A DNA stretch of 64,000 nucleotides from Streptomyces sp. DG1A-41 (GTDB lineage: Bacteria > Actinomycetota > Actinomycetes > Streptomycetales > Streptomycetaceae). A model generated the notes under the pieces. The model was not told where the DNA came from. It did no database searches and saw nothing but the letters and a program-made list of their open reading frames with translations. Positions within the stretch are counted from its first letter, which is position 1, and every line of letters begins with the position of its first letter. The stretch covers positions 7,773,001 through 7,837,000 of the forward strand of contig NZ_CP146350.1 of NCBI RefSeq assembly GCF_037055355.1, written 5' to 3'. Positions 53,903-63,940 of this stretch are shown piece by piece. The translations under genes and the position numbers were made by a program.

Positions 53903-54751
53903 TCAGCCCTGGGCGGCCGCTGCCCGCAGGGCGATCCGGTCCTCACCCGCGTACACGTTCATGGAGCTGCCCCGCAGGAAGCCCACCAGCGTCAGGCCCG
54001 TCTCGGCGGCCAGGTCCACCGCCAGCGAGGACGGCGCCGACACCGCCGCCAGGACCGGGATGCCGGCCATCACGGCCTTCTGTGCCAGCTCGAAGGAGGC
54101 CCGGCCCGAGACGAGCAGGATCGTCCGCGACAACGGAAGATCTCCGTTCTGGAGGGCGCGGCCGACCAGCTTGTCGACCGCGTTGTGCCGGCCCACGTCC
54201 TCGCGGACGTCCAGCAGCTCGCCGTCCTCCGAGAAGAGGGCCGCCGCGTGCAGGCCGCCGGTCCGGTCGAAGACCCGCTGGGCCGCGCGCAGCCGGTCGG
54301 GCAGGTCCGCGAGCAGCTCGGGAGTGACCCGGACCGGGGGAGTGTCGGCGATGGGCCAGCGGGCCGTCGTGCGCACGGCGTCCAGCGACGCCTTGCCGCA
54401 CAGCCCGCAGGAGGAGGTCGTGTAGACGTTCCGCTCCAGCGTGATCTCGGGGATCACCACGCCCGGGGCCGTCTGCACGTCGACCACGTTGTAGGTGTTC
54501 GACCCGTCGGCGGTCGCCCCGGCGCAGTAGACGATGTTCCTCAGGTCCCGCTGCCCGCCCAGCACCCCCTCGCTCACCAGGAAGCCCGCCGCCAGTGCGA
54601 AGTCGTCGCCCGGCGTGCGCATGGTGATCGCCAGGGGCTTGCCGTTCAGGCGGATCTCCAGGGGTTCCTCGGCGACGAGCGTGTCCGGACGGCTGGAGAC
54701 CGCCCCGTCCCGGATGCGGAGCACCTTGCGTCGTTCCGTGACTCGTCCCAT
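53903..54751 (-). CDS. fdhD: Formate dehydrogenase sulfurtransferase FdhD
   Basis: 282 residues, full FdhD: EEPLEIRLNGKPLAITMRTP, DDFALAAGFLVSEGVL, the sulfur-relay TTSSCGLCGKASLDAV (CxxC loop), FDRTGGLHAAALFSEDGELL, VREDVGRHNAVDKLVGRAL and VSGRASFELAQKAVMAGIPV. FdhD passes sulfur to the molybdenum bis-MGD cofactor so that FDH can fold active. It is the last gene of the formate dehydrogenase operon, six bases after the Fe-S subunit gene. Its presence is strong support for a real, cofactor-dependent FDH here. Confidence 0.95.
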   Translation of the reverse strand: MGRVTERRKVLRIRDGAVSSRPDTLVAEEPLEIRLNGKPLAITMRTPGDDFALAAGFLVSEGVLGGQRDLRNIVYCAGATADGSNTYNVVDVQTAPGVVIPEITLERNVYTTSSCGLCGKASLDAVRTTARWPIADTPPVRVTPELLADLPDRLRAAQRVFDRTGGLHAAALFSEDGELLDVREDVGRHNAVDKLVGRALQNGDLPLSRTILLVSGRASFELAQKAVMAGIPVLAAVSAPSSLAVDLAAETGLTLVGFLRGSSMNVYAGEDRIALRAAAAQG

Positions 54752-54757
54752 GTCTGA

Positions 54758-55618
54758 TCAGCCCCGGTTCTGTACGTGCTGGTAGCCGAAGCGGCCCTTG
54801 ATGCAGAGGTTGCCGTGGGTCACCGGGTTGTCGTGCGGCGAGGTGACCTTCACGATCTCATTGTCCTGCACGTGCAGCGTCAGGTTGCAGCCCACTCCGC
54901 AGTACGCGCACACCGTGGTCGTCTCCGTCTGCCGCGACTCGTCCCACGTACCCGCCGCGCGCATGTCGAACTCGGACTTGAACGACAGCGCGCCCGTCGG
55001 GCACACCTCGATGCAGTTCCCGCAGTACACGCACGCCGAGTCCGTCAGCGGCGCGTCGTGCTCCACGGCGATCCGGGCGTCGAAACCGCGCCCGGCGACC
55101 GAGATCGCGAAGGTGTTCTGCCACTGGTCGCCGCAGGCGTCCACACACTTGTAACAGAGGATGCACTTGTCGTAATCGCGCACGTACAGGTCGTTGTCGA
55201 CCTTCGGCTCCTCGTTGAGCCGGGCCGCGTCCGGGCCGAAGCGGTCCGGCTTCGCCTCGTACTCCTTGAGCCACTCGGCGACCCGCGGTGTCGTCGACAG
55301 GTCGACCGAGGACGCCAGCAGTTCGAGGACGATCTTCCGGCTGTGCCGGGCCCGCTCGGTGTCGGTGCGCACCTCCATGCCCGGCTCGGCCTTGCGGGAG
55401 CAGGCCGGGACCAGCGTGCGGGCGCCCTCGACCTCGACGACGCAGACGCGGCAGGCATTCTTCGGCCGCAGGGTGTCGCCCTCGCACAGGGTCGGGATGT
55501 CCTTCCCGGCCGCCCGGCAGGCGTCCAGAATGGTCGAGCCCTCGGGGACCCGGGCCTCCTCGCCGTCGACCGTGAACTCCAGCATGCGGCGCGGGATCCC
55601 CAGTGGTGTGACGGTCAT
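54758..55618 (-). CDS. Formate dehydrogenase iron-sulfur subunit: N-terminal half of a split FdsA-type alpha chain
   Basis: 286 residues carrying four cofactor modules: a [2Fe-2S] domain (about 15-90; DIPTLCEGDTLRPKNACRVC), two [4Fe-4S] ferredoxin motifs (CILCYKCVDACGDQW and CVYCGNCIEVCPTGAL, about 145-205), and at the end (about 233-286) CAYCGVGCNLTLHV ... LCIKGRFGYQHV, which is the Fe4S4 domain that normally opens the catalytic chain of molybdopterin oxidoreductases. In FdsA-like FDHs all this is continuous with the Mo domain; here the chain stops. The missing rest is encoded two genes upstream at 57453-59378. The stop of the NuoEF gene overlaps its start (ATGA). Confidence 0.9.
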   Translation of the reverse strand: MTVTPLGIPRRMLEFTVDGEEARVPEGSTILDACRAAGKDIPTLCEGDTLRPKNACRVCVVEVEGARTLVPACSRKAEPGMEVRTDTERARHSRKIVLELLASSVDLSTTPRVAEWLKEYEAKPDRFGPDAARLNEEPKVDNDLYVRDYDKCILCYKCVDACGDQWQNTFAISVAGRGFDARIAVEHDAPLTDSACVYCGNCIEVCPTGALSFKSEFDMRAAGTWDESRQTETTTVCAYCGVGCNLTLHVQDNEIVKVTSPHDNPVTHGNLCIKGRFGYQHVQNRG

Positions 55619-57447
55619 TCGTACGCCCCCAGACGGTCGATGGCGGATTCCACGGCATTCCACGCGGTCTGCCCCAGACCGCAGATCGAGGCGTCCCGCA
55701 TCGCGCGGCCGACCTCCCTCAGCAGGGCGATGTCCCCGGCGGCGTCGGCGCCGGTGCGCTCCACGATCCGGTGCAGCGCCTCCTCCTGCCGCACGGTCCC
55801 GACCCGGCACGGCACGCACTGCCCGCACGACTCGTCGCGGAAGAACTCCGCGATGCGCAGCAGGAGCCGAGGGAGGGGCACGCTGTCGTCGAAGGCCATG
55901 ACGACCCCCGAGCCGAGCGTCGTGCCCGCCTCCCGCGTCCCTTCGAAGGTGAGCGGGATGTCGAGCTCGTCGGCCCGTACGAAACCGCCCGCCGCCCCGC
56001 CGAGCAGCACCGCCCGCAGCCCCTCGCGGACTCCGGCGAGCCCGAGCAGCTCCCCGAGCCTCGCGCCGAACGGCAGCTCGTAGACGCCGGGCCGCTCCAC
56101 CTTGCCCGACACACAGAACAGCTTCGGCCCGGTGGACCTGCCCGTGCCGATCGCCGCGTACGCCGGGGCGCCCATGGTGAGGATCGGCAGGACGTTGACG
56201 AGTGTCTCGACGTTGTTCTCGACCGTCGGCTTGCCGAACAGGCCCTTCTCCACGGGGAACGGGGGCTTCGAGCGGGGCTCGCCCCGATAGCCCTCGATGG
56301 AGTTGAACAGGGCCGTCTCCTCACCGCAGATGTAGGCCCCCGCGCCACGCCGGATCTCGATGTCGAAGGCGTAGCCCTGGCCGAGGACGTCGTCGCCGAG
56401 CAGACCACGCGCGCGTGCCTGCGCGATCGCGTGCTCCAGGAGGTGCAGCGCGCGAGGGTACTCGCCGCGCAGGTAGAGGAAGCCCTTGCGGGCGCCGGTC
56501 GCGTACCCGGCGATCGTCATCGCCTCGACCAGCGCGTACGGGTCGCCCTCCATGAGCACCCGGTCCTTGAAGGTTCCCGGCTCGGACTCGTCGGCGTTGC
56601 AGACGAGGTAGTGCGGATGGTCCGGCTGGGACGCCGTGGCCTGCCACTTGCGGCCGGTCGGGAAGGCGGCGCCGCCGCGCCCGACCAGGCCCGAGTCGGT
56701 GACCTCGCGGATGACCCCGGCGGGGCCCAGCTCGAAGGCCCGGCGCAGGGCCGTGTAGCCGCCGTGGGCGCGGTAGTCGTCGAGGGACGCCGGGTCGACC
56801 ACCCCGACGCGGTGCAGCAGCATCAGGCCGTCCTGCCCGGCCTGGGGCACCGCCAGCGCGGCCGGGGGCTCTTCCGGCGCCGAGTCGGGCGCGCTCGCGG
56901 CGAGGACGGCGTCGTGGACGGTCGTCGGTGCCGAGACCGCCGTACGGACCGGGTCCCCGGCCCTGATCGCCAGGGCGGCCGGGGCCCGTTCGCACAGACC
57001 GAGGCAGGGGCTGCGCTCGACCGCGACACCGCTGCCGAGGCCCAGCCGCTCCTCGATCCCCGCGCACAGCTCCGGCGCCCCGGCCGCCGCGCACGCCAAA
57101 TCCGTGCACACGTGGAGCACGGTCGCCGGACGCGGTTTGACCGAGAACATGGCGTAGAAGGTGGCGACCCCGTAGGCCTCCGCCGGCGGCACCGTCAGCC
57201 GCAGGCACAGGTAGTCGAGGGCGCCCTCGCTGATCCAGCCGACCCGGTCGTTGATCGCGTGCAGCCCCGGCAACAGCAGGTCGCGGCGGTCCCGGGCCTC
57301 GCGTCCGCCACGGGCCCACCGGAGATCGGCGGCCCTCATCTCATCGCGGGTGGCGCCCTCCCAGGAGGACTCCGGGGGCCCGAGCAGGGCGTCGACGGCG
57401 GCCCGTTCGTCGTCCGTCGGTTTGCTGTCGCCGAAGTGCAGGTCCAC
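55615..57447 (-). CDS. NuoE-NuoF fusion: NAD-reducing diaphorase subunit of formate dehydrogenase
   Basis: 610 residues. Residues about 1-165 are a NuoE/HoxE-like thioredoxin-fold [2Fe-2S] protein (LCLRLTVPPAEAYGVATFYAMF, CTDLACAAAG, RSPCLGLCERAP); the rest (about 200-610) is NuoF/HoxF: GLVGRGGAAFPTGRKW (NAD/FMN), CNADESEPGTFKDR, GAGAYICGEETALFNSIEG, and the C-terminal [4Fe-4S] ligands SCGQCVPCRVG plus SICGLGQTAW. It takes electrons from the Fe-S/Mo subunits and reduces NAD+. The fusion of E and F is known in other NAD-dependent FDH and hydrogenase systems. Five bases separate it from the FDH catalytic gene. Confidence 0.94.
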   Translation of the reverse strand: MDLHFGDSKPTDDERAAVDALLGPPESSWEGATRDEMRAADLRWARGGREARDRRDLLLPGLHAINDRVGWISEGALDYLCLRLTVPPAEAYGVATFYAMFSVKPRPATVLHVCTDLACAAAGAPELCAGIEERLGLGSGVAVERSPCLGLCERAPAALAIRAGDPVRTAVSAPTTVHDAVLAASAPDSAPEEPPAALAVPQAGQDGLMLLHRVGVVDPASLDDYRAHGGYTALRRAFELGPAGVIREVTDSGLVGRGGAAFPTGRKWQATASQPDHPHYLVCNADESEPGTFKDRVLMEGDPYALVEAMTIAGYATGARKGFLYLRGEYPRALHLLEHAIAQARARGLLGDDVLGQGYAFDIEIRRGAGAYICGEETALFNSIEGYRGEPRSKPPFPVEKGLFGKPTVENNVETLVNVLPILTMGAPAYAAIGTGRSTGPKLFCVSGKVERPGVYELPFGARLGELLGLAGVREGLRAVLLGGAAGGFVRADELDIPLTFEGTREAGTTLGSGVVMAFDDSVPLPRLLLRIAEFFRDESCGQCVPCRVGTVRQEEALHRIVERTGADAAGDIALLREVGRAMRDASICGLGQTAWNAVESAIDRLGAYE

Positions 57448-57452
57448 TTACG

Positions 57453-59378
57453 TCACCCCACGATGGTCGCGACGGGCAGCTTCTCGATCCGGATCGCCGC
57501 CGCCTTGAACTCCGCCGTCCCCGCGATCGGGCAGTTCGCCTCGATCGTCAGCGCGTTGGTGTCCACCTCGTCGGGGAAGTGCATGGTCATGAAGGCGAGC
57601 CCGGGCCGCAGCGCGGTGTCCACCCACACGGGCGCGGTCACCGACCCGCGCCGCGACGTGACCTGGACCTGCTCGCCGACCACCACCCCGTAGCGCTCGG
57701 CGTCCTCAGGGCTCAGCTCGATGTACTCGCCGCGCCGCAGAGGCGAGGCGTAACTGCCACTCTGCACCCCGGTGTTGTACGAGTCGAGCCGTCGCCCGGT
57801 GGTGAGCCGGATCGGGTACTCCTCGTCGGTGAGGTCCACGGGCGGGTCGTGCTGCACGATCCCGAAGGGCGCGAGCGGACCGCGTTGCGCGGGGTCGGGC
57901 TCCCACAACCGGCCGTGCAGATAGGTCGGTTCGAGCCCCTCGGTACTGGGGCACGGCCACTGGATGCCCTGGTGCTCCTCCAGACGCTCGTACGTCATGC
58001 CGTAGTGGTCGGGCGAGACCGACCGGAGCTCGCTCCACACGGTCTCGGCGTCGGCGTACTTCCAGTCGTGGCCGAGGCGGGCCGCGAGGTCGCAGATGAT
58101 GTCGATGTCCTCGCGGGCCTCGCCGGGCGGGGTGACGGCCTTGCGGACGCGCTGCACGCGCCGTTCGCTGTTGGTGGTCGTGCCGTCGGTCTCCGCCCAG
58201 CCGGCGGTGGCCGGCAGGACGACGTCCGCGAGCTCGGCCGTCTTCGTGAGGAAGATGTCCTGGACGACGAGGAAGTCGAGGGCTTTCAGCCGCCGCACGG
58301 CCTGCTCGCTGTCCGCCTCCGACTGGGCCGGGTTCTCGCCGACGCAGTAGACGGCCTTGAGCGTGCCGTCCTCCATCGCCTCGAACATCTCCGTGAGGTT
58401 CAGGCCGTAGTGCGGCTGGATGACGGTCTCCCAGGCCGACTCGAATTTCACCCGGACGTCCGGGTCGAGGATGTCCTGGAAGCCGGGCAGGCGGTTGGGG
58501 ATCGCGCCCATGTCGCCGCCGCCCTGGACGTTGTTCTGCCCGCGCAGGGGTTGCAGGCCGGCGCCGTAGCGGCCGACATGCCCGGTGAGCAGGGACAGGT
58601 TGATCAGGGCACGGACGTTGTCGGTGCCGTTGTGGTGCTCGGTGATGCCGAGGGTCCAGCACAGCTGGGCGCGCTCGGCACGGGCGTAGGCGTGTGCCAA
58701 CTCGCGGACGGCGGCGGCCGGTACGCCCGTCACCTTCTCGGCCAGCGACAGCGTCCACGGCTCGACGAGGGCCTTGTACCCCTCGAAGCCGGTGGTCGCC
58801 CGCTCGACGAACGCCTCGTTCGCGAGGCCCGCGTCGATGATCTCGCGGCCGATCGCGTGCGCCATCGGGATGTCGGTGCCGACGTTGAGGCCCAGCCAGC
58901 TCTCGGCCCACTCGGCGGTCGACGTCCTGCGCGGATCGACCGCGTACATCCGGGCGCCGTTCCTGATCCCCTTCAGTACGTGCTGGAAGAAGATCGGGTG
59001 CGCGAAACGGGCGTTGGAGCCCCACATCACGATGACGTCGGTGTGCTCGATCTCCTCGTACGACGACGTCCCGCCGCCCGAGCCGAACGCCGCCGACAGG
59101 CCCGCCACGCTCGGGGCGTGACAGGTGCGGTTGCAGGAGTCGACGTTGTTGGTGCCCATGACGACCCGGGCGAACTTCTGGGCGACGTAGTTCATCTCGT
59201 TCGTCGCCCGGGCGCAGGAGAACATGCCGAACGCGCCGCGGTTGCGGACCAGTCCGCGGGCCGCCCGGTCCAGGGCCTCCTCCCAGGTGGCCCGGCGGAA
59301 CGGCTCGTCGCGCGAGTCCCTGACCAGGGGGTGGGTGAGCCGGGTGTAGGTCTTCGGGCTTCGGTCGCGTTTGCTCAT
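57453..59378 (-). CDS. Formate dehydrogenase catalytic subunit (molybdopterin bis-MGD), lacking its own Fe4S4 domain
   Basis: 641 residues. It starts directly in the Mo-binding region: SCARATNEMNYVAQKFAR, VDSCNRTCHAPSVAGL near residue 84 (the Cys before HAPSV replaces the selenocysteine of E. coli FdhF), VIVMWGSNARFAHPIFFQH, AVDPRRTSTAEWAESWLGL, RGQNNVQGGGDMGAIPNRLPG, and the C-terminal MGD domain (RLTTGRRLDSYNTGVQSGSY ... EANCPIAGTAEFKAAAIRIE). The N-terminal Fe4S4 domain (CxYCxVGC ... LCxKGRFG) is missing here but present at the end of the protein at 54758-55618. It oxidises formate to CO2. ATG 59378 overlaps the PanE-like stop. Confidence 0.93.
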   Translation of the reverse strand: MSKRDRSPKTYTRLTHPLVRDSRDEPFRRATWEEALDRAARGLVRNRGAFGMFSCARATNEMNYVAQKFARVVMGTNNVDSCNRTCHAPSVAGLSAAFGSGGGTSSYEEIEHTDVIVMWGSNARFAHPIFFQHVLKGIRNGARMYAVDPRRTSTAEWAESWLGLNVGTDIPMAHAIGREIIDAGLANEAFVERATTGFEGYKALVEPWTLSLAEKVTGVPAAAVRELAHAYARAERAQLCWTLGITEHHNGTDNVRALINLSLLTGHVGRYGAGLQPLRGQNNVQGGGDMGAIPNRLPGFQDILDPDVRVKFESAWETVIQPHYGLNLTEMFEAMEDGTLKAVYCVGENPAQSEADSEQAVRRLKALDFLVVQDIFLTKTAELADVVLPATAGWAETDGTTTNSERRVQRVRKAVTPPGEAREDIDIICDLAARLGHDWKYADAETVWSELRSVSPDHYGMTYERLEEHQGIQWPCPSTEGLEPTYLHGRLWEPDPAQRGPLAPFGIVQHDPPVDLTDEEYPIRLTTGRRLDSYNTGVQSGSYASPLRRGEYIELSPEDAERYGVVVGEQVQVTSRRGSVTAPVWVDTALRPGLAFMTMHFPDEVDTNALTIEANCPIAGTAEFKAAAIRIEKLPVATIVG

Positions 59379-60346
59379 GCGGCGCTCCTCAGCGCGAGCA
59401 GGTCCGAGATGGCGTGCACGGTGCGCAGGGTGGGCACCTCCACGCCGGTGACGTCCGCCAACTCGACGACCGCCGCGAGGAGTACGTCGAGTTCGAGCGG
59501 TTTGCCGCGCTCCAGGTCCTGGAGCGTGGAGGTCCGGTGGTCGCCGACCCGCTCGGCGCCCGCGAGCCGGCGCTCGACGGAGACACCGACCTCGCAGCCG
59601 AGGGCCTTCGCGACCGCGAGCGTCTCGGTCATCATGATCTCGATGACCCTGCGGGTGCCGCCGTGCAGGCACATCTGCCGCATGGTCGCGCGGGCCAGCG
59701 CGCTGATCGGGTTGAAGGAGATGTTGCCGAGCAGCTTGAGCCAGATGTCGTTGCGGAGGTCCGGTTCGACCGGGCACTTCAGTCCACCCGCCTGCATGGC
59801 CTCGCTGAACGCCACGCACCGTGTGGACACGCTGCGGTCGGGCTCGCCGACGGAGAACCGCGTGCCTTCCAAGTGCTTGACGAGGCCCGGCCCTTCGAGC
59901 TCGGTCGCCGCGTAGACGACACAGCCGACGGCCCGTTCGGGCGCGAGCACCGCACTGACCGCGCCGTCCGGGTCCACGCTCTCGATCCGGTGGCCGTCGT
60001 ACGGGCCGCCGTGCCGGTGGAAGTACCACCAGGGGATGCCGTTCTGGGCGGCCACGACCGCTGTCGAGTCGCCCAGCAACGGCGCGATCAGCGGCCCGCA
60101 CGCCGCGTACGCGTTGGCCTTCAGGCCGAGGAAGACGTAGTCGACCGCGCCGACCTCGGCCGGGTCGTCGGTCGCGTGGGGGTGCGCGGTGAAGTCGCCG
60201 CGCGGGCTGCGCACCCGGACTCCGTGCTGCCTCATGGCCGCCAGATGCGGTCCACGGGCGATGAGATGCACATCGGCGCCCGCGCGGTGGAGCGCGGCGC
60301 CGACGTAGGCGCCGATGGCACCGGCGCCGAGAACTGCGACTTTCAC
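59375..60346 (-). CDS. 2-Dehydropantoate 2-reductase family (PanE/ApbA-like) protein
   Basis: 323 residues: GAGAIGAYVGAALHRAGADV NADPH loop at the N-terminus, VDYVFLGLKANAYAAC, VVAAQNGIPWWYFHRHGG, and the C-terminal helical domain (WLKLLGNISFNPISALARAT with the catalytic Lys, LEVDVLLAAVVELADVTGVE). Such reductases make pantoate or other 2-hydroxy acids. It is the promoter-proximal gene of the FDH operon and overlaps FDH alpha by four bases, so its real substrate could be a 2-oxo acid linked to formate/oxalate metabolism rather than ketopantoate. ATG 60346. Confidence 0.85.
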   Translation of the reverse strand: MKVAVLGAGAIGAYVGAALHRAGADVHLIARGPHLAAMRQHGVRVRSPRGDFTAHPHATDDPAEVGAVDYVFLGLKANAYAACGPLIAPLLGDSTAVVAAQNGIPWWYFHRHGGPYDGHRIESVDPDGAVSAVLAPERAVGCVVYAATELEGPGLVKHLEGTRFSVGEPDRSVSTRCVAFSEAMQAGGLKCPVEPDLRNDIWLKLLGNISFNPISALARATMRQMCLHGGTRRVIEIMMTETLAVAKALGCEVGVSVERRLAGAERVGDHRTSTLQDLERGKPLELDVLLAAVVELADVTGVEVPTLRTVHAISDLLALRSAA

Positions 60347-60468: not shown

Positions 60469-60583
60469 TTGAGCCAGCAAGGGTCCGCGCGATGACCGTT
60501 CGGCGCAAGGTGGATACCGCTCACCGCATACGGTCGACGCGCCGCTTTCTCAACTCCGTGTGATTGCCTACCGTTCCGGGTTC

Positions 60584-61916
60584 ATGAGTCCCCCAGTCGC
60601 GCCCCCGGGCTGGAGCCGCTGGCTCGTCCCGCCCGCCGCTCTCTCCGTCCATCTCTCCATCGGCCAGGCCTACGCCTGGAGCGTGTTCAAGCCGCCCCTG
60701 GAGTCCGCGCTCGGCCTCAGCGGCACCCAGAGCGCGCTGCCCTTCCAGCTGGGCATCGTCATGCTGGGCCTGTCCGCCGCGTTCGGCGGCACGCTCGTGG
60801 AGCGCAACGGCCCGCGCTGGGCGATGACCGTCGCCCTGGTCTGCTTCTCGTCCGGCTTCCTGCTCTCCGCGCTGGGCGCGGCCGTGGAGCAGTACTGGCT
60901 GATCGTCCTCGGCTACGGCTTCGTCGGCGGCATCGGCCTCGGCATCGGCTACATCTCACCCGTCTCCACCCTGATCAAGTGGTTCCCGGACCGGCCCGGC
61001 ATGGCCACCGGCATCGCCATCATGGGCTTCGGCGGCGGCGCGCTCATCGCCTCGCCGTGGTCCGCGCAGATGCTGGAGTCGTTCGGCGGCGACAGCTCCG
61101 GCATCGCGCTGGCCTTCCTCGTGCACGGCCTGTCGTACGCCGTCTTCATGCTGCTGGGTGTGCTCCTGGTCCGGGTTCCGCGCAGTGCGCCAGGGGCGCG
61201 GGGAACCGCGCGGCCGGCCCACCGGCCCGCAGGTCTCCGCGAACCAGGCCATCCGCACCCCGCAGTTCTGGTGCCTGTGGACCGTGCTCTGCATGAACGT
61301 CACCGCCGGCATCGGCATCCTGGAGAAGGCCGCCCCGATGATCACGGACTTCTTCGCGGACTCCGCCACGCCCGTGTCGGTGACGGCCGCCGCCGGCTTC
61401 GTCGCGCTGTTGTCGGCGGCGAACATGGCGGGCCGCATCGGCTGGTCGTCGACGTCCGACCTGATCGGCCGCAAGAACATCTACCGCGTCTATCTGGGCG
61501 TCGGCGCGCTGATGTACGCGCTCATCGCCCTGTTCGGCGACTCCTCCAAGCCGCTGTTCGTCCTGTGCGCGCTGGTGATCCTTTCCTTCTACGGCGGCGG
61601 CTTCGCGACCATCCCGGCGTATCTGAAGGACCTGTTCGGCACGTACCAGGTGGGCGCCGTCCACGGGCGGCTGCTCACCGCCTGGTCGCTGGCCGGCGTG
61701 CTCGGGCCGCTCATCGTGAACTGGATCGCCGACCGGCAGGAGGAGGCGGGCCGGCACGGCGCGTCCCTGTACGGTCTGTCGTTCGTCATCATGATCGGGC
61801 TGCTCGTCGTCGGCTTCGTCGCCAACGAACTCGTCCGGCCCGTCCACCCGCGTCATCACATCCCGGCACCGAGGGAGGCCGCCGATGTCCAGCGACAGCA
61901 GTCAGAGTCCGCCTAG
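60584..61916 (+). pseudogene. MFS transporter (oxalate/formate antiporter type), interrupted by a dispersed repeat
   Basis: Two in-order pieces of one 12-helix carrier. Frame 2 gives SIGQAYAWSVFKPPLESALG, GFGGGALIASPWSAQMLES and FMLLGVLLVRVPR; frame 0 gives VSANQAIRTPQFWCLWTVLC, MNVTAGIGILEKAAPMITDF, GRIGWSSTSDLIGRKNIYRV, GGGFATIPAYLKDLFGTYQV and the end MIGLLVVGFVANELVRP. The join (61188-61232) is not coding but a copy of the Streptomyces CAGGGGCGCGGGGAAC... repeat in the central cytoplasmic loop, changing the frame. The start is placed at ATG 60584 from homology. The frame-2 translation would run on to 61936 as nonsense, so carriage of formate/oxalate is likely lost unless the repeat is a mis-assembly. 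Confidence 0.82.
61188..61232. repeat. Streptomyces intergenic repeat, copy D, inside the MFS gene
   Basis: TGCGCCAGGGGCGCGGGGAA followed by CCGCGCGGCCGGCCCACCGG and CCCGCAG. It shares GCGCGGGGAAC, GCGCG, CACCGGCCCGCAG with copy C at 37655-37697. It sits exactly where coding homology of the transporter is lost. Confidence 0.75.
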
Positions 61917-63262: not shown

Positions 63263-63940
63263 ATGCTGTCGACAGGCCTGCCCCAGGGGGCGGTACCCAA
63301 GCTGGAACGCCCGGGTCCGCTGCGCGACCGCGTCTACGAGGCACTGCTCGAACTCATCACCACCCGTGCCCTCCAGCCCGGCCAGCACCTCGTGGAGAGC
63401 GAGCTCGCCGGGCATCTGGGAGTCTCCCGGCAGCCGGTGCGCGAGGCGTTGCAGCGGCTCAACACCGAGGGGTGGGTCGATCTGCGCCCCGCCCAGGGCG
63501 CGTTCGTGCACGAGCCGACGGAGGAGGAGGCCGACCAGCTCCTCACGGTCCGTACGCTCCTGGAGGCCGAGGCGGCCCGGCTCGCCGCGGCGGGCGCGGA
63601 CAGTGCCGGCATCGCCGCGCTGGAAGCGCTGTGCGCGGAGGGCGAGAAGGCCGTCGAGGCCGACGACGTGGACGGGGCCGTCGCCATGAACGCCCGCTTC
63701 CACGCGAAGATCATGGAGCTCGCCGGCAACGCCGTCCTGGCCGAACTGGCCGCCCAGGTCGACCGCCGCGTCCGCTGGTACTACACGCCGGTCGCCCGCC
63801 AGCGCGGCCACCAGTCCTGGATCGAACACCGCGCACTCATCGCGGCGATCACCGACCGCGACGAACAGCGGGCCACCCACCTGATGCGCGAACACACGGA
63901 GCACACGAGGCGCTCGTACCACGCGCGGGCGCGTTCGTAG
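63263..63940 (+). CDS. GntR-family regulator, FadR/FCD subfamily
   Basis: 225 residues: N-terminal winged HTH (LRDRVYEALLELITTRALQP, SELAGHLGVSRQPVREALQR, WVDLRPAQGAFVHEPTEEEA) and an all-helical FCD ligand domain (TVRTLLEAEAARLAAAGADS, MNARFHAKIMELAGN, IEHRALIAAITDRDE, HLMREHTEHTRRSYH), with the Asp/His metal-binding pattern of FCD domains. FadR-type regulators sense organic acids. Shared operator-like motifs suggest it controls itself and the formate/oxalate divergon. ATG 63263 follows GAGGAGGGGG. Confidence 0.92.
   Translation: MLSTGLPQGAVPKLERPGPLRDRVYEALLELITTRALQPGQHLVESELAGHLGVSRQPVREALQRLNTEGWVDLRPAQGAFVHEPTEEEADQLLTVRTLLEAEAARLAAAGADSAGIAALEALCAEGEKAVEADDVDGAVAMNARFHAKIMELAGNAVLAELAAQVDRRVRWYYTPVARQRGHQSWIEHRALIAAITDRDEQRATHLMREHTEHTRRSYHARARS

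Follow-up and report, generated by a model that had tools for sequence, protein, structure and literature searches.

The analysed window, positions 7,773,001-7,837,000 (64,000 nt) of the 9.0 Mb single-contig genome of Streptomyces sp. DG1A-41, carries a minus-strand operon in the order panE-like gene, MoCat, NuoE-NuoF fusion, FeS and fdhD, and the alpha chain of the formate dehydrogenase (FDH) that it appears to encode is divided between two genes. The molybdenum (Mo) catalytic subunit (MoCat, P0002) has no Fe4S4 domain; this domain lies at the C-terminal end of the iron-sulfur (Fe-S) subunit (FeS, P0001), on the far side of the NuoE-NuoF fusion (NuoEF). To judge from the genes, the product is probably (roughly 85%) a cytoplasmic NAD+-linked FDH of three chains, in which the proximal [4Fe-4S] domain would dock in trans. 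Loci and genomes are denoted by L and G numbers, G000 being the window's own genome.

In the proposed mechanism, formate would be oxidized at the Mo centre of MoCat (Cys86-His87-Arg279), the chain on which all domains that bind molybdopterin guanine dinucleotide (MGD) are found. Electrons would then pass to the Fe4S4 domain of the Fe-S chain, docked where this domain sits in cis in FdhF and FdsA, and continue through two [4Fe-4S] clusters, a [2Fe-2S] cluster and the NuoF cluster to flavin mononucleotide (FMN) and NAD+, with the FMN and NAD sites located on NuoEF. Like Methylorubrum FDH1, the enzyme lacks a His-Cys3 side cluster, which would not be part of this relay.

Division of the Alpha Chain

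The Fdh-alpha model TIGR01591 is shared out between the two proteins, with model positions 1-50 on the C-terminus of P0001 (53 bits) and positions 52-672 on P0002 (624 bits), and the whole-protein cut-off of 666.25 bits is reached by neither. In Pfam, P0001 features Fer2_4 (residues 11-87), Fer4 pairs and Molybdop_Fe4S4 (residues 232-284), and P0002 features Molybdopterin and Molydop_binding and nothing else. P0001 matches residues 69-340 of the alpha chain of Methylorubrum extorquens FDH1, and the predicted model of MoCat (predicted local distance difference test, pLDDT, 79.5) aligns from residue 10-12 onward with the same chain from 341-343; the break therefore falls at a domain border. Against E. 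coli FdhF, the MoCat model aligns from residue 7 onward with FdhF from residue 55.

The coordinates, frames and domain content given by an earlier sequence-based note on this DNA (the original prediction), namely chains of 286 and 641 aa with Fe4S4 at the end of P0001, agree with Pfam and NCBIfam. The permuted order that it described, with the C-terminal half first, then NuoEF and then the N-terminal half, is likewise borne out by the division of TIGR01591 at 50/52. It had also named a hidden Fe4S4 domain upstream of position 59378 as a reason to abandon the split; however, no second Fe4S4 domain was found in six frames of the whole window, and the sole frame that bears one is that of P0001. 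The [2Fe-2S], 4Fe-4S, Fe4S4 and Mo domains that FdsA-type enzymes hold in one alpha chain are thus encoded here by two genes, while the NuoE/NuoF-like NADH-reacting subunits of that type are present, though fused.

Spread of the Split Arrangement

The first search covered 61 genomes, 37 of them from the same genus, including G000. A copy at ≥86% identity occurs in 16 of these 37, two of which are partial (G022, G030), and an Fe-S match with a segment of ≥60% identity is found in 34 of 296 Actinomycetota genomes, as counted from the rows listed. A wider contig scan, which is a non-random sample with taxa that are lower bounds, gave at least 80 loci. With an Fe-S score >215 as threshold, 84 loci were retained, comprising the window, 13 from the genome searches and 70 of 80 scanned (L079 and L157 are one place). 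Among the matches listed, Fe4S4 is located on the Fe-S chain in all 84, and 69 have MoCat on the same strand, upstream of FeS and separated from it by NuoF. Even with TGA read through, Fe4S4 does not stand ahead of MoCat in any of the 70 MoCat frames of these 69 loci. Sixteen apparent cases of Fe4S4 on the MoCat frame were rejected as artefacts of TGA readthrough, since the domain follows MoCat in all 16 and precedes it in none.

The 69 ordered loci carry the labels Actinomycetota, Chloroflexota, Bacillota, Acidobacteriota, Gemmatimonadota, Planctomycetota, Pseudomonadota and Armatimonadota, or none (at least eight phyla); most of the non-actinomycete records are metagenome bins, and phyla are as labelled in the records. 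A Myxococcota contig (L139) also features the split Fe-S gene and stops before MoCat. This is one of 15 loci with no MoCat within the piece of DNA examined, nine of which reach a contig edge (L043, L100, L113, L122, L131, L139, L150, L155, L156). In L088 and L146, MoCat is elsewhere, either on another contig or, in Halopolyspora, ~12 kb from NuoEF on the opposite strand, and L154 and L157/L079 are decayed. The survey for the same order that the original prediction had called for thus points, among the matches listed, to a real split subunit in many genomes, and the arrangement is old, widespread and conserved, not a one-off rearrangement.

Of the other ten scanned loci, six are fused (L158, L159, L162, L163, L166, L167) and L160 is a fragment; L164 features an Fe-S gene separate from Fe4S4-MoCat, and L161 and L165 have a diaphorase module with no Mo gene in view. 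L080 was rejected as a split locus, its apparent split being due to a frame break. Frames of ~350-390 aa at ~42% identity were considered as further split Fe-S genes and discarded, as those examined belong to fused selenoproteins and stop at their in-frame TGA. In plasmid records, all 235 matches to P0001 were below 60% identity.

Decay is seen in several Streptomyces copies: fragments beside fdhD in G030 (L078), a truncated Fe-S gene in S. blattellae (L079/L157), and loss of MoCat and most of NuoEF in S. minutiscleroticus (L154). All of these still adjoin a full-length fdhD match. In L112, an actinobacterial bin, ~2 kb separates MoCat from NuoEF, with a frame resembling quinone oxidoreductase on the opposite strand. 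Some Fe-S chains (L048-L051, L111 and P0121) carry 20-25 extra residues near residue 130, after the [2Fe-2S] domain and before the ferredoxin domain; this insertion includes a GHHxxPDG-like motif and is possibly a metal or structural site.

Evolutionary Origin

In trees with split rows thinned to 26-27, the split enzymes form a single clade for each subunit: MoCat (26 rows, 100/100), FeS (27 rows, 100/96) and NuoF (27 rows, 98/92). The split arrangement arose once. FeS and NuoF branch with the Chloroflexota diaphorase modules L161/L164/L165 (100/99 and 100/96, respectively), whereas MoCat has a long separate stem adjoining haloarchaeal FdhF.

The original prediction viewed the two genes as halves of an FdsA-type chain, and this ancestry is disfavoured by the placement of FeS and NuoF beside the Chloroflexota modules and by several further features. 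The Cys residues of the His-Cys3 cluster, a point that it had not raised, are absent from P0001, and the motif is found in 0 of 84 split rows compared with 32 of 40 fused rows; the eight fused rows that lack it include enzymes with fused NuoEF from Methylobacterium (L172) and Azospirillum (L083). Fusion of NuoEF is shared with Methylorubrum FDH1, and P0002 scores higher against archaeal FdhA (7bkb, 499 bits) and E. coli FdhF (448 bits) than against FdsA (6tg9, 398 bits).

The branching pattern lends itself to an origin in which a Mo chain from a different lineage joined a Chloroflexota-like diaphorase module (NuoEF-FeS), without breakage of a fused chain, and such an origin is compatible with docking in trans. 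We hold this origin to be tentative, falling somewhat short of an even chance, as a sister relationship between MoCat and these same Chloroflexota enzymes is not rejected by approximately unbiased (AU) tests (p 0.16-0.21), L158, a fused enzyme from Chloroflexota, falls with the sister group of FeS, and the gene order is an exact rotation of NuoEF-FeS-Fe4S4-MoCat. A placement of MoCat beside the wider FDH1 group is likewise not rejected by the AU tests (p 0.31). Rotation to MoCat-NuoEF-FeS-Fe4S4 suggests tandem duplication and trimming, and L159 features two fused FDH genes in tandem, the first of selenocysteine type (cut by the locus edge). Loss of the outer parts from such a tandem would give the rotated split order, and tandem fused FDHs as in L159 are therefore a possible intermediate. 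The broader proposal, for which the balance is about even, is of a broadly distributed FDH family in which Fe4S4 resides permanently on the relay subunit and docks in trans, the Mo chain is a detachable core (in Halopolyspora its gene sits ~12 kb off on the opposite strand), and the split came about through tandem operon duplication and trimming, a circular permutation at the level of genes.

Conserved Residues and the Electron Relay

The 16 ligand Cys residues, assigned by motif, are kept in 81-84 of 84 rows, the deficits being gaps, two Arg at C155 and one Arg at C244. All 84 rows have the lysine of the LCxKG motif, Lys274, which we take to be the equivalent of the electron-transfer lysine of FdhF, and C/U86, H87 and R279 of MoCat are present in 65 of 65. 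The ratio of nonsynonymous to synonymous substitution (dN/dS) is 0.05-0.18 for the three subunits compared with nine near relatives, and selection on them is purifying. Linkage to fdhD and intact Cys ligands, which the original prediction had put forward as arguments for function, thus hold up, and the operon looks functional.

In Rhodobacter capsulatus, the A4 cluster (Cys121, Cys124, Cys130, His117) is at the dimer interface and off the direct chain A1-A2-A3-A5-B6, as described in the accessible text (PMC7171172), and M. extorquens FDH1, in which clusters are numbered differently, keeps its relay with no A4 equivalent (PMC10869683, accessible part). The relay of the split enzyme is therefore complete. 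Superfamily Mo enzymes that have no N-terminal cluster are known (PMC10100899, in the part available), and MoCat might by analogy be active with no proximal cluster, with the Fe4S4 domain on the Fe-S chain being a relic or serving another partner. This is improbable given that the Fe4S4 Cys residues and the lysine are conserved, that both genes are retained even where MoCat is ~12 kb off on the other strand (Halopolyspora), and that an NAD-linked enzyme requires a relay from Mo. Slightly less probable still is a molybdoenzyme for another substrate, nitrate-reductase-like or other, because the best family is Fdh-alpha, the U/C-H...R triad is invariant, fdhD is within the operon, and the physiology of FDH3 from Actinomycetospora chiangmaiensis, as far as the available text goes, concerns formate (PMC7176365). 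That the window carries a local rearrangement or a pseudogene in decay, confined to this genome or genus (or, as the original prediction worded it, a split unique and inactive), is already refuted by the recurrence of this order in 69 loci across many phyla, the dN/dS values and the conserved ligands, despite the decayed Streptomyces copies.

Selenocysteine and Cysteine Forms

In each of the 11 split loci that were inspected first, MoCat residue 86 is encoded by TGA, within the sequence CNRT[TGA]HAPSVVGLA. Across the 69 loci, this codon is TGA in 45, Cys in 20 and unread in four, one of which (L094) is TGA on inspection. The preceding tripeptide NRT is a mark of the split clade (65/65), with Ala-Arg-Leu/Val in most of 47 other rows. 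SelB (TIGR00475) exceeds its cut-off in every one of the 11 genomes where TGA was seen, as well as in G206 (MoCat not in view), compared with 0 of 9 genomes with Cys seen (that of the window and eight others). The Cys forms are explained by one change on a 66-row tree (support 98/89); the ancestral form was probably a selenocysteine enzyme, with a switch to cysteine in a single actinomycete clade.

The panE-like gene accompanies all 20 Cys loci and none of the 45 TGA loci (seven of which have <1.3 kb upstream in view). Since Halopolyspora, which branches next to the Cys clade, has both panE and TGA, panE may have come before the Cys change, and the association represents one lineage, not independent cases. 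In A. chiangmaiensis, the alpha subunits of its three FDH systems are of selenocysteine type, and the organism accumulates formate without selenite, with tungstate having no effect, according to the text available (PMC7176365).

Formate Source and Genome Context

Formyl-CoA chemistry is the likely source of formate in Streptomyces. A block ~33-34 kb from the Fe-S gene in G000 features a formyl-CoA transferase (Frc; TIGR03253, 704.7 bits, cut-off 504.2) and a thiamine pyrophosphate (TPP) enzyme whose nearest PDB entry is a 2-hydroxyacyl-CoA lyase and whose best NCBIfam model, below cut-off, is acetolactate synthase. Among the 37 same-genus genomes, Frc is above cut-off in all 15 carriers and in 4 of the 22 non-carriers (p 5e-7, with no correction for kinship). 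G022, with its truncated Fe-S gene, is placed among the carriers, and G030 (remnant) among the non-carriers. Two of the four Frc-positive non-carriers, G024 and G034, have a fused FDH-like match. A lyase-like match (220-253 bits), counted by eye, occurs in all 15 carriers and in 3 of the 22 non-carriers, and is on the contig of the Fe-S gene at ~15-38 kb in 12 of 15 carriers and on other contigs in three. Each of the two enzymes would yield formate or formyl-CoA, a link that is circumstantial because the block is syntenic.

An oxalate route through canonical oxalyl-CoA decarboxylase was dropped, as no more than 3 of the 37 same-genus genomes (G000, G024, G028) have TIGR03254 above cut-off, and in G000 and G024 it lies near the fused FDH. 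The own genome also encodes a fused FDH at 2,514,578 (L076), along with a NuoG-like match at 5,456,147. From L076 onward (G000:C1:2514578-2537851), the fused FDH, a canonical oxalyl-CoA decarboxylase and two Frc matches occur within ~23 kb, and G000 seems to have two separate formate-generating/oxidising sets.

Operon and Neighbouring Genes

The features of the operon are collected in Table 1. ATGA overlaps occur at the panE/MoCat and NuoEF/FeS junctions. The nearest relatives are from Streptomyces, and MoCat has 96% identity to that of S. afghaniensis.

Table 1. Features of the split FDH operon, in window positions
Feature	Position	Strand	Remarks
panE-like gene (2-dehydropantoate 2-reductase family), first in operon	59375..60346	-	
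MoCat catalytic subunit, 641 aa	57453..59378	-	bis-MGD-binding molybdopterin oxidoreductase core without Fe4S4 domain; Cys86, His87, Arg279
NuoE-NuoF fusion, 610 aa, GTG start	55615..57447	-	thioredoxin-like [2Fe-2S], FMN/NAD(H) and [4Fe-4S] domains
Fe-S subunit, 286 aa	54758..55618	-	[2Fe-2S], two [4Fe-4S], Fe4S4 domain at residues 232-284; Lys274
Relocated Molybdop_Fe4S4 domain	54767..54925	-	P0001 residues 232-284; ligands by motif C237, C240, C244, C272
fdhD, accessory sulfurtransferase	53903..54751	-	NF001943 404 bits, cut-off 269

Divergent from the operon, at 60560-61916 (+), is a major facilitator superfamily (MFS) transporter akin to lactate and oxalate/formate antiporter models (below cut-offs), whose gene is interrupted by a frame change near 61171-61230. 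The two halves are one unbroken frame in eight relatives, seven with Streptomyces labels (L121, L126, L127, L128, L134, L136, L154) and 'Actinobacteria bacterium OV320' (L130), and likewise in L137. A GntR regulator resembling that at 63263-63940 of the window is near the operon in L129, L140, L141, L143, L146 and L151 (Pseudonocardiaceae and others) and is a candidate regulator of it.

Weight and Meaning of the Evidence

Several points weigh against a three-chain enzyme with its proximal cluster in trans. Docking, as the original prediction proposed, follows from the domain anatomy, but the three-chain complex and the physical contact are deduced from the genes, and the AlphaFold2 model of the Fe-S chain is poor (pLDDT 56). 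P0002 by itself is under the Fdh-alpha cut-off (624 vs 666 bits), as expected because the first 50 model positions are absent from it. MoCat was not found in the metagenome-assembled genome of L096 in a search at E 1e-50, SelB-like matches fall just short of the cut-off in two of the nine genomes of Cys type (G020, G033), and the co-occurrence of Frc may reflect merely a shared genomic block. The membrane FDH1 of A. chiangmaiensis is expressed too (PMC7176365, text available), and the selenium effect is therefore not specific to FDH3. Finally, the likeness to FDH3 is one of subunit lengths and description in the accessible text, not of FdhA3/B3/C3 sequences.

In this enzyme superfamily, the proximal cluster serves as the electron gateway and usually belongs to the Mo chain. 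A naturally occurring, ancient split at exactly this border offers a route to swapping or removing the gateway with the active site untouched, and has a bearing on formate/CO2 catalysis, on electron exchange between Mo enzymes and their partners, and on the shuffling of complex-I-like modules. The split may also explain why the Fe-S part is named '2Fe-2S iron-sulfur cluster-binding protein' in public records, why the Mo part scores under the Fdh-alpha cut-off, and why the selenocysteine form resembles two gene pieces under standard reading.

Comparison With Known Formate Dehydrogenases

FDH3 of A. chiangmaiensis DSM 45062 comprises FdhA3 (640 aa), FdhB3 (614 aa) and FdhC3 (316 aa), and was seen by proteomics at 0.012-0.022%, 2.2-3.1-fold up on 2-hydroxyisobutyrate (Table 1 and accessible text of PMC7176365). 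Like the split enzyme (641/610/286 aa), it has three soluble subunits and is called cytoplasmic and NAD+-dependent there, but it uses selenocysteine where the window enzyme has Cys. An enzyme of this size with three subunits was thus known before. The main text of PMC7176365, as available, was found to hold no remark on loss or relocation of Fe4S4 in FDH3, and a shift of the domain to the Fe-S subunit was not found described in the accessible portions of the literature searched (including PMC8808070, PMC13397495, PMC13335904 and PMC7325909). PF04879 is present on the Fe-S proteins of four other Actinomycetospora entries.

M. extorquens FDH1 (7vw6, 8j83) shares with the split enzyme a fused NuoEF and the lack of a His-Cys3 cluster (PMC10869683, accessible part), but its alpha subunit is a single chain with Fe4S4 in cis, it is recorded as a tungsten enzyme, and identity is 35-36%. 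FdsABGD of R. capsulatus (6tg9) has the same relay, from bis-MGD through Fe4S4, two [4Fe-4S], [2Fe-2S] and a NuoF-like cluster to FMN. It differs in its one alpha chain, its separate G and B subunits, and its His-Cys3 cluster A4 at the dimer interface (PMC7171172, accessible text). E. coli FdhF and the FdhA of archaea and of the hydrogen-dependent CO2 reductase (HDCR) resemble MoCat in the catalytic core and the C/U-H-R residues and give the top sequence scores with P0002, but their Fe4S4 is in cis at the N-terminus. Haloarchaeal (plasmids L084, L171) and Anaerolineales (L164) FDHs also feature the Fe-S chain as a separate gene adjoining NuoF; in these, however, the break comes one domain earlier, and Fe4S4 remains on the Mo chain.

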